This document shows positions 4,799 through 7,746 of a DNA stretch of 64,000 bases, in pieces; the stretch's first letter is position 1; the number at the start of each line of letters is the position of its first letter. The notes beneath the pieces were generated by a model. The model ran no database searches, was not told the origin of the DNA, and saw only the letters and a program-made list of their open reading frames with translations. Both the position numbers and the translations under genes were made by a program. This DNA is from Candidatus Anaerobiospirillum pullistercoris. Lineage in GTDB: Bacteria; Pseudomonadota; Gammaproteobacteria; Enterobacterales; Succinivibrionaceae. The DNA is taken from NCBI GenBank assembly GCA_019114785.1, contig DXEV01000130.1, forward strand, positions 1-64,000, in the 5' to 3' direction.

Positions 4799-6317
4799 GC
4801 CGCACCTCTTAGCTCAACTCACACTGACACAGACAAAACAGAAAAATCAGAAAACGTGGCTCGTAGCATGACAGCCTCAAACCAGCGACCTAGCCTTACG
4901 GTATGCCTTGACTAACCTTGGTGAACCTTGGTGAATAAGTCAGCCTCCGTCTGTCTGAAAAGGACATAAACGGAGGCAGGAAACAACTTTGGTTATGGCA
5001 AATAAGGAGGTCTTGGTGAGCTGCTGTCCTTATTATGTCTGCTTTAAGAACAATGTTCGTACAAGCATGGCATATTAATCAAGAACGCAGCAGGAGCACA
5101 CAAGTCGACATCAAAAAACTACTGCTTGAAAGCCGATAAATAGGCCTTAAAGCCCAAAACCCTAGATCCGGCCAATGAAAATGCAGGAAAAGCAGCTGTT
5201 CCTGATGTCGTGAAATTTACACGTTGTTATGAATACGTGTTATTTTGTAATGGATTATAAGGAAAATATTTGGCGGTGATTAGGAAAAGTTACGAAAAAC
5301 GTGATGTTTTTGCCAAATATTAGACATGCTTCACAAAATTGGGGTGAGAGCAAGAAAAAAGCTCAGCAAATGCCAATTTTAAGCGGAATAGCTTATTTAT
5401 CGCCTTAAAATGTGGGGGAGTGAGCTGAAGTGATTTTGTGGTGCAGAAGGGGGAAATTGTTGCGATCTGGTTCAAATTTACGAACAATTTACGAACAGTT
5501 TTCGTGATATAGGGCACAGTTTTACGAAAATTTTCGTAAAAACATTTCGTGCATGTGTTACAGAAAGGTGAGGCCAAAAGTTCTTAGCGTTGCTGGCGGT
5601 GAAAAGTTAGGACTATGTAAGCAGTAGTTTGCATGGCCTAGCTATGCTTTAGGCCAGCTTATTTGTCATGGCAGTACTCTTAAGGCTAGTGGGGATCACT
5701 TTAGTCTTGGAGGCGATTGGCATTGCAGGCATTGCAAGCAGTGCAGGCAGTGCGTTAGTCTGCCAGCTTTACGTTTACGCTTTGGATCTTTTGGCGCTCT
5801 GGTTGGTGGCACATTGGGGCCAACAAATGGTGCTAGAGAAATGTGCATAGCTTGCACAGGCTAGAGAATTTGCGATTTGCTACGTTGTTGCTTTGTTTGT
5901 TGCAGTAGGAGCCGAAGCGGATAGAGCACAATTGCAAGGATACTTGGTGCTTTAGGTGCTGTTCAGTAAGCCTTGGCAGTTGTTTGCTTTGCTCCGTATG
6001 AGGCTGATACGTGACATTGCCAGTATCATCCCCGCTGAGCCAGCTGTCACAGCAGTATTAGCTGTCACAGCTGCTGGTTGCAGGATGTGGGTAGTAATGT
6101 CAGCAGAGTAGGCAAAATTGCAAGTATGCACCTATTTGGGCTTACAATAGATTCCACATTTTGTGAGATCGTTGCTTTCTTTTGTCTCTTTTTGTCTCTT
6201 TTTGCCTCGGATGGCCTTGGGCTGCCTTTGGTAGAGGTAGAGCGAGAGTGCAGCGACTGGTTGCGTGCAAAGTGCGGCAGTCCTCTCCTGCTTTTGCTTT
6301 AACTGATGCCGCGTAAT

Positions 6318-6483
6318 TCCCTATGCGTAAGTGTAGGGATGTAAGCGGAAAAGAACTCGGGAAGGGGCGTTTTGTCCCAACTTCGATGGGGGCATTGTGG
6401 ACATGCCCGTGAAGCTCCTAACCTTTAGGATATTCACTAAAAGCGGGGCAGCGACCCTGCGAAACCGCAGACGTAAGTCTGCG
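6318..6483 (+). mobile_element. Possible IS200/IS605-type right-end / omegaRNA-like remnant
   Basis: Hairpin GTGAA-gc-TCCTAA-cct-TTAGGA-ta-TTCAC (6409-6437) resembles IS605 RE hairpins by recall; adjacent CGCAGAC-GTAA-GTCTGCG stem (6466-6483); upstream TCCCTA...TAGGGA (6318-6339). No intact tnpA/tnpB seen. Confidence 0.4.
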
Positions 6484-6558
6484 TGTAGTTCATCAAATGT
6501 TCTAAGCGTTTTTGTTTTCTCTTAAGAGCACTTTGCGCAGTGGTAATGGTTTTTAGGT

Positions 6559-7746
6559 ATGAACAGCACTCAAATAGCCAAGTTGGCTGGCGTCTCGCGC
6601 TCTACCGTATCTAAGGTTTTGCACAATTACAAAGGCATCCCCGAGGAGACTCGACAGAAAGTGCTTAAAGTCATCAAGGAGTATGACTACAAGCCAAATA
6701 CTATGTCTCAGGCTTTACGTGGGATCAGCCCTAAAGTTATTGCTTTGTATTTTTACGAGCGTATGAACGATCCTGATGCCTACCGTCATGACTTAGGACT
6801 GATCAATTACAACCTCTCTATGCTTAATGCCATTACCATGGAAGCCAAGAAAGTTGGCTATTCGGTAGTTTATGAGCTGATCTTTAGCTATGAGGGCGAA
6901 AAGAAGATCATCAATATGATCAACGAGGCCTTTGATAGCCGCAAGATCAGCAGTGCGGTCTTTGTGGGCTTAGACTCTGATGCCCACTTTATTGCTGAAG
7001 TTGCACGTCCTGATCGTCATATCATTGTGCTGGATAAGGAAGAGGATACGACCACTGGCGTGCGCTGCTTGTTCTCCAGCGATTTTCGTTCTGCCGAGCG
7101 TGCCTGTGAGCACCTGTATGGGAATGGTTTTACGCGGATCATGCACATCAGTGGTGAGACGACCAAACTCTCTGGTTTTGATCGGCGTCGTGGCTATATG
7201 TCTTTTATGCACAAGCTTAAAGCTGAGCAGCAGCTGGAGTGCGAGCCTCTGATCTTAGGTAATAAATTTGGCTTTGAGATGGGTTATGCGGTAGGCTTGC
7301 AATTTATCGAAGAGCGGCTGTATGAGCGTTACAACGGCATACTCTGTGGCTGCGATATGATTGCGATTGGCTTTTTTAAGCGCTTGCAGGAAATGAGACC
7401 GGATCTCATTGATCAACTGGGCATCATAGGCTTTGATAATGAACTTGTGGATCAGTATGTCACGCCATCGCTCTCCACCATGTCGCCAAATTATCGCAGT
7501 TTTGCTCACATGATCTTTGATTTAGAGCAGAATTATGAAGAGTTTAAGGGTGGTATGACTTTAAAGCTGGATCATGTGCTGATTGAGCGTGATAGCAGTA
7601 AGCCATCGGAGCAGCGTACCACCTCACGCATTGCGCGTCAGCTGACGATCAATGCAGATGAAGTAGCTTCTCAGGTTGATGGTGCCCATGCTGAGCTTAA
7701 GAACGAAAAAATAGCAGAGGCAGCAAAGGCAGAATTGGCAGTTTAG
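6559..7746 (+). CDS. LacI-family transcriptional regulator
   Basis: N-terminal HTH STQIAKLAGVSRSTVSKVLHNYKGIPEETRQKV followed by a periplasmic-binding-like domain. Confidence 0.93.
   Translation: MNSTQIAKLAGVSRSTVSKVLHNYKGIPEETRQKVLKVIKEYDYKPNTMSQALRGISPKVIALYFYERMNDPDAYRHDLGLINYNLSMLNAITMEAKKVGYSVVYELIFSYEGEKKIINMINEAFDSRKISSAVFVGLDSDAHFIAEVARPDRHIIVLDKEEDTTTGVRCLFSSDFRSAERACEHLYGNGFTRIMHISGETTKLSGFDRRRGYMSFMHKLKAEQQLECEPLILGNKFGFEMGYAVGLQFIEERLYERYNGILCGCDMIAIGFFKRLQEMRPDLIDQLGIIGFDNELVDQYVTPSLSTMSPNYRSFAHMIFDLEQNYEEFKGGMTLKLDHVLIERDSSKPSEQRTTSRIARQLTINADEVASQVDGAHAELKNEKIAEAAKAELAV

Follow-up and report, generated by a model that had tools for sequence, protein, structure and literature searches.

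A probable non-autonomous IS605-family element of PATE type with a whole omegaRNA scaffold and no protein gene, upstream of a lacI-family gene in Candidatus Anaerobiospirillum pullistercoris

The window analysed here is a 64,000-nucleotide stretch of contig DXEV01000130.1 from Candidatus Anaerobiospirillum pullistercoris. Between two sugar-use genes it carries a whole protein-free IS605-type element of 196 bp (positions 6298-6493; Table 1). A lacI-family regulator follows on the same strand, its ATG at 6559 being 65 bp downstream of the element, not about 75 bp as given in the first-pass annotation, an earlier reading of the letters alone. On the other side, the roughly 1.5 kb between a divergent alpha-galactosidase gene and the element (4799-6297) hold no ORF longer than 85 aa. 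The left end (LE) of the element is fused directly to a complete 143-nt omegaRNA/right end (RE). Both tnpA and tnpB are absent, as had been noted before, and the ORF list contains no ORF of at least 80 aa within the 196 bp.

The first-pass annotation had described two hairpins, in a segment starting at 6318, as a possible IS200/IS605 right end or omegaRNA-like scar. Both hairpins are present (hairpin 3 and the terminal hairpin in Table 1), and both go beyond chance, as indicated by shuffled folds and by covariation in relatives. The start at 6318, however, falls inside an LE hairpin that had been missed. The two-tier hairpin was rightly assigned to an omegaRNA, but it is an internal stem, and the terminal RE hairpin is the one with the GTAA loop. 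Folding of 6351-6493 gives -58.5 kcal/mol, whereas shuffled sequences average -42.3 (z -4.2; none of 200 shuffles reaches it), and the left-end segment, folded as single-stranded DNA, has a z of -4.1.

Table 1. Features of the element and its surroundings in the window
Feature	Positions	Strand	Evidence or remark
TTTAAC, target site / expected TAM	6298-6303	+	Left flank only; no duplicate on the right
Left end (LE) with imperfect hairpin 6309-6348	6304-6350	+	LE identity 98% to C223, 96% to C183; ssDNA fold
OmegaRNA scaffold / right end (RE), 143 nt	6351-6493	+	RE identity 97% to C223 tnpB element, 96.5% to C206; RNA model R1, 154 bits; covariation
5' strand of pseudoknot-type pairing, GAACU (partner AGUUC, 6487-6491)	6353-6357	+	Near-invariant in alignment A2; fits ISDra2 pseudoknot GAA/UUC (PMC10097598)
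OmegaRNA hairpin 1, two-tier	6357-6386	+	7 of 9 pairs changed on both sides
OmegaRNA hairpin 2, GGGCAU...AUGCCC	6390-6408	+	AU to UA double change relative to tnpB-coding copies
OmegaRNA hairpin 3, GTGAA-gc-TCCTAA-cct-TTAGGA-ta-TTCAC (two-tier hairpin of the first-pass annotation)	6409-6437	+	6 of 12 pairs changed on both sides
OmegaRNA hairpin 4	6443-6460	+	Both-side changes in 4 pairs
GAAAC, candidate right guide box for TnpA, 5' foot of terminal hairpin; can pair with UUC of the end	6461-6465	+	Conserved in A2; putative role by IS608/ISDra2 logic
Terminal RE hairpin, CGCAGAC-GTAA-GTCTGCG	6466-6483	+	Sequence; found in nearly all copies
GTAGTTCAT, right boundary of element	6485-6493	+	Point where resemblance among copies stops
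CAAATGTTCTAAGCGT, would-be guide, first 16 nt of flanking DNA	6494-6509	+	Position by analogy with ISDra2 (PMC10097598)
lacI-family regulator, downstream of element	6559-7746	+	Pfam LacI and Peripla_BP_3

A search of the same genome with window positions 6290-6490 returned 12 places. Contig C223 has two separate matches on one strand, 1.5 kb apart: the initial 52 bases of the query at 98% and the final 144 at 97%. Between the two matches a 442-aa TnpB is encoded, which scores above the cut-off of NF040570 guided_TnpB and contains the Pfam OrfB_IS605 and TNB domains. A single-sequence search with TnpB against solved TnpB structures gave no match at E 0.001; family profiles do match. On C183, an LE 96% identical to that of the window adjoins a 135-aa Y1-type TnpA (Pfam PF01797, E 8e-38; ISHp608 TnpA structures, E 3e-18), which is apparently intact. 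A divergent tnpB on C183 runs to the contig end and carries one TGA. C206 begins in the other half of a tnpB, with an RE behind it. By these matches, the window element consists of the two ends of an IS605-type element, LE and RE, in direct junction and lacking tnpA and tnpB. The earlier assignment to an IS200/IS605-type right end is thus borne out, at 97% identity to the RE behind a tnpB gene of the same genome.

Such a joined structure could also be a scar, left where an IS605 element lost its interior and never mobile as such. The 97-98% identity of both ends to the tnpB element and the position of the junction, just past the would-be tnpB stop codon, are what one would expect from it. However, C226 of the same genome carries two protein-free copies with the same direct LE-RE junction in unrelated flanks. 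A deletion could have founded the type, yet the type has spread, and we regard an immobile scar as unlikely. A further protein-free copy, on C168, has a short spacer between the ends. A degenerate RE-only copy (L009:1654-1745; 85% over 94 nt, no LE found) lies just 3' of a DNA adenine methylase-like ORF (769-1617).

Matches to the element occur in seven of the ten genomes of the genus, and 32 protein-free copies from these genomes were extracted for boundary comparison. Nearly all of them have (T)TTAAC variants before the start and GTAGTTCAT at the end, with a few deviating slightly, and the flanking DNA on both sides is unrelated. The 32 copies lack terminal inverted repeats and show no duplication of the target, TTTAAC being found on the left only and unrelated DNA after GTAGTTCAT. 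Within a genome, copies at unrelated sites are often more than 90% identical; in G004, for instance, five of them reach 99%. For one of the two sister copies on C226 (C226a), a joined-flank search found the fucK-fucI junction uninterrupted in G007. At the window locus, the lacI upstream regions of eight relatives are without the element, but too diverged to show the exact empty site. The same holds for a flgI insertion (C49 of G006): in the relatives checked, no copy of the element interrupts the gene ends, and the flanks past the stop codon are too diverged for an exact empty site. The constant boundaries and unrelated flanks argue for a palindrome-associated transposable element (PATE) and against a scar. 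Therefore, the window element is very probably a non-autonomous member of the IS605 family of the PATE type, with LE and RE joined, a whole omegaRNA scaffold and no protein gene. The terms "scar" and "decayed" of the first-pass annotation do not fit, since the element retains both ends intact and many copies have this protein-free form. The related copies on which that annotation had made its reading depend are present both in the genome and in its relatives.

With lacI 65 bp downstream and on the same strand, the element is placed where an RNA exapted for control of lacI or of the alpha-galactoside genes could lie; the first-pass annotation had raised an exapted regulatory RNA as a possibility. 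Such a role would be expected to leave the element conserved at the lacI locus, and it is absent upstream of lacI at all eight orthologous loci examined in the genus. Furthermore, its 97% identity to transposon copies marks the window copy as recent. The would-be guide (6494-6509) has no second genomic target with 0-1 mismatches, and matches with two mismatches are no more frequent than for the control pattern. One of the latter lies in the window itself (5575-5590) and is not preceded by TTTAAC. We consider exaptation very improbable. Upstream of the lacI orthologue in G006, a hairpin, GGAATCCCCCTGCGTAAGCTGGGGGAGGATGTC (L080:1-60), resembles the family LE hairpin; it had no significant match in the searches.

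The RNA itself has a common fold among the relatives, in which the GAACU/AGUUC pairing closes five hairpins; this pairing is formed in 98% of cells of alignment A2. Covariation was assessed with 14 sequences, the window included. In this alignment 93.1% of cells are paired, and 19 pairs have double changes. The covariation score of 0.318 exceeds that of shuffled (0.165) and slid alignments (at most 0.074), with no shuffle reaching the observed value, and double-change cells number 61, against 19.4 shuffled and at most 11 slid. The omegaRNA scaffold is thus a conserved, covarying, multi-stem structure. A covariance model built from the same 14 sequences finds the window at 154 bits, the window being one of its own building sequences.

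The scaffold is also found where an omegaRNA is expected. In a complete IS605 element (G005 C78: LE, divergent tnpA, tnpB and RE), the omegaRNA overlaps the tnpB C-terminus, as in ISDra2 (PMC10097598). It lies at the tnpB 3' end and reaches the RE boundary in this element, in G001 C190, and in 13 of the 16 TnpB loci searched. Furthermore, the model lies across the tnpB 3' end in Parasutterella, Sutterella, Turicimonas and Aphodousia, members of another bacterial order, whose loci were fetched only through TnpB and left out of model building. This upholds the earlier suggestion of an omegaRNA. The window copy has no tnpB of its own beside the omegaRNA. In the tnpB elements of C223 and C206 (L009:4998-5330 and L010:470-802), two omegaRNA-like units stand in tandem. 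The first is degraded, lies in the tnpB C-terminus and is without the terminal hairpin, while the second is intact, non-coding and located after the stop codon; the window omegaRNA is of the second type.

Hairpins formed by chance, a terminator or a REP-type repeat unrelated to IS605 could account for the lack of an Rfam family match, as a search at gathering and permissive thresholds gave none up to E 10. Rfam may not hold this omegaRNA type, and the missing match, not a defining feature of omegaRNAs, is uninformative. The homology to tnpB-linked ends, the covariation and the model matches at tnpB 3' ends refute such an origin, to which we attach a negligible probability.

Across the Succinivibrionaceae, the covariance model detects copies in 13 of 57 genomes and four of 14 genera, with up to about 50 per genome. 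A further 60 copies were fetched: in 43 of them an LE precedes the RNA by 35-39 nt and TnpB is absent, five lie behind a TnpB, and the others either extend past a contig end or have an LE too diverged to call. Protein-free copies greatly outnumber tnpB-linked ones in this element family. Three shorter protein-free copies from G007 (L065, L066 and L067; 159-187 nt) have lost the 5' half of the omegaRNA and kept the ends, so that a short form can persist without the full scaffold and internal loss is tolerated. Searches for a close TnpB or TnpA in G006, G007 and G008, which have many protein-free copies, found none in these fragmented drafts. This may be due to drafts breaking at repeats, or these copies could be relics.

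A 35-nt spacer between LE and RNA is common to most protein-free copies and has TATAAT or TACAAT 6-7 nt before the first RNA base. At or near this -10-like place, 32 of 52 distinct spacers score five to six of six, compared to about 4% after shuffling, although many of the 52 are related by descent and do not represent independent counts. Two spacer types exist among the protein-free copies; the tnpB-linked elements examined contain neither of the two. The spacer and the retained omegaRNA suggest mobile stand-alone guide-RNA genes, which would use TnpB in trans. The window copy has neither spacer nor -10 box, and no sigma-70-type promoter is predicted at 6100-6600. Being without the promoter-like spacer, this copy is probably silent, unless read-through transcription reaches it.

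The element arrived most likely by single-strand transposition, with an IS200-type TnpA acting in trans. It would have inserted 3' of TTTAAC, with no target duplication. A plus-strand transcript would then act as an omegaRNA with about 16 bases after 6493 as its guide. This RNA could lead a TnpB from another copy to the empty allele, in which TTTAAC would be followed by CAAATGTT..., and the action of TnpB at this allele would favour retention of the element.

Alternatively, the RNA of the same protein-free element could be a passive fossil, with only the terminal hairpins mattering, for TnpA, and with internal stems persisting since the copies are young or refreshed from tnpB-linked elements. 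The window copy, with its missing spacer and -10 box, is consistent with this. So are the broken omegaRNA stems of the C226b and C168 copies, which would reflect neutral decay after insertion, and the copy-rich genomes without a detectable close TnpB. However, TnpA should need the ends only, and most copies keep the full-length scaffold, even though the G007 copies tolerate internal loss. The double changes also persist in a group of protein-free copies with one spacer type, presumably descendants of one protein-free ancestor: 18 cells, most of them in internal stems 3 and 4, as compared to 7.6 after shuffling and no more than 9 after sliding. These changes argue modestly for continued selection on the RNA fold after protein loss; recombination with tnpB-linked copies could be another source. 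Overall, we give the passive fossil only slightly less than an even chance.

TnpB nucleases are thought to aid transposon persistence by cutting the empty donor site. Tentatively, and with somewhat more doubt than confidence, we propose that Succinivibrionaceae carry families of mobile stand-alone omegaRNA genes. Each would consist of LE, its own -10-type promoter, a complete omegaRNA and RE, in up to tens of copies per genome. Every copy would take its guide from its insertion site, and TnpB and TnpA would act in trans, so that one nuclease gene could defend many protein-free elements from loss. Such elements, protein-free but with a full omegaRNA next to a promoter-like box, would parasitize the TnpB retention service. 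Alternatively, they would be an intermediate between a transposon-bound guide and separate guide-RNA genes, as in Cas12 systems. The large aligned copy set, the covariation and the precise guides make the stand-alone guide idea directly testable.

The closest known counterparts are the PATEs of Haloquadratum walsbyi, described as protein-free sequences with near-terminal palindromes and ends common to IS605-type transposons, without terminal inverted repeats or target duplication, and in some cases amplified at more than 90% identity (PMC3119063). Similarly, the window element is too short for a transposase, and its near-terminal palindromes match the IS605-type tnpB element of C223. It differs from PATEs as described there in keeping a complete covarying omegaRNA, and most of its relatives have a spacer with a -10-like box. 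A PATE-like sequence of 271 nt in Halanaerobium hydrogeniformans has an LE hairpin fused to the final 58 nt of tnpB, followed by an entire RE of 160 nt (PMC7290912). In that description it is a single copy, presented without a family, promoter-like spacer or RNA analysis.

The omegaRNA of ISDra2 TnpB overlaps the tnpB 3' end and the RE, and has a GAA/UUC pseudoknot and several stems (PMC10097598). The scaffold described here likewise ends in GUUCA-x before the guide (GUUCA-U in this case), and has a GAA partner and several stems. In contrast to ISDra2, it is 143 nt long instead of 116 (PMC10097598) and is encoded without tnpB; the likeness drawn here is one of overall architecture. With ISHp608 (IS608), the family shares a homologous Y1 TnpA (on C183), subterminal hairpins and insertion beside a short motif. 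It differs in its target, TTTAAC, and its right end, TTCAT; for IS608, these are TTAC and TCAA. A literature search for protein-free elements keeping an omegaRNA, largely outside subscription journals, gave only PATE reports without RNA analysis. An IS605-derived PATE is an already known kind of element, and what is new is the retained covarying omegaRNA, together with the promoter-like spacer, across genera.
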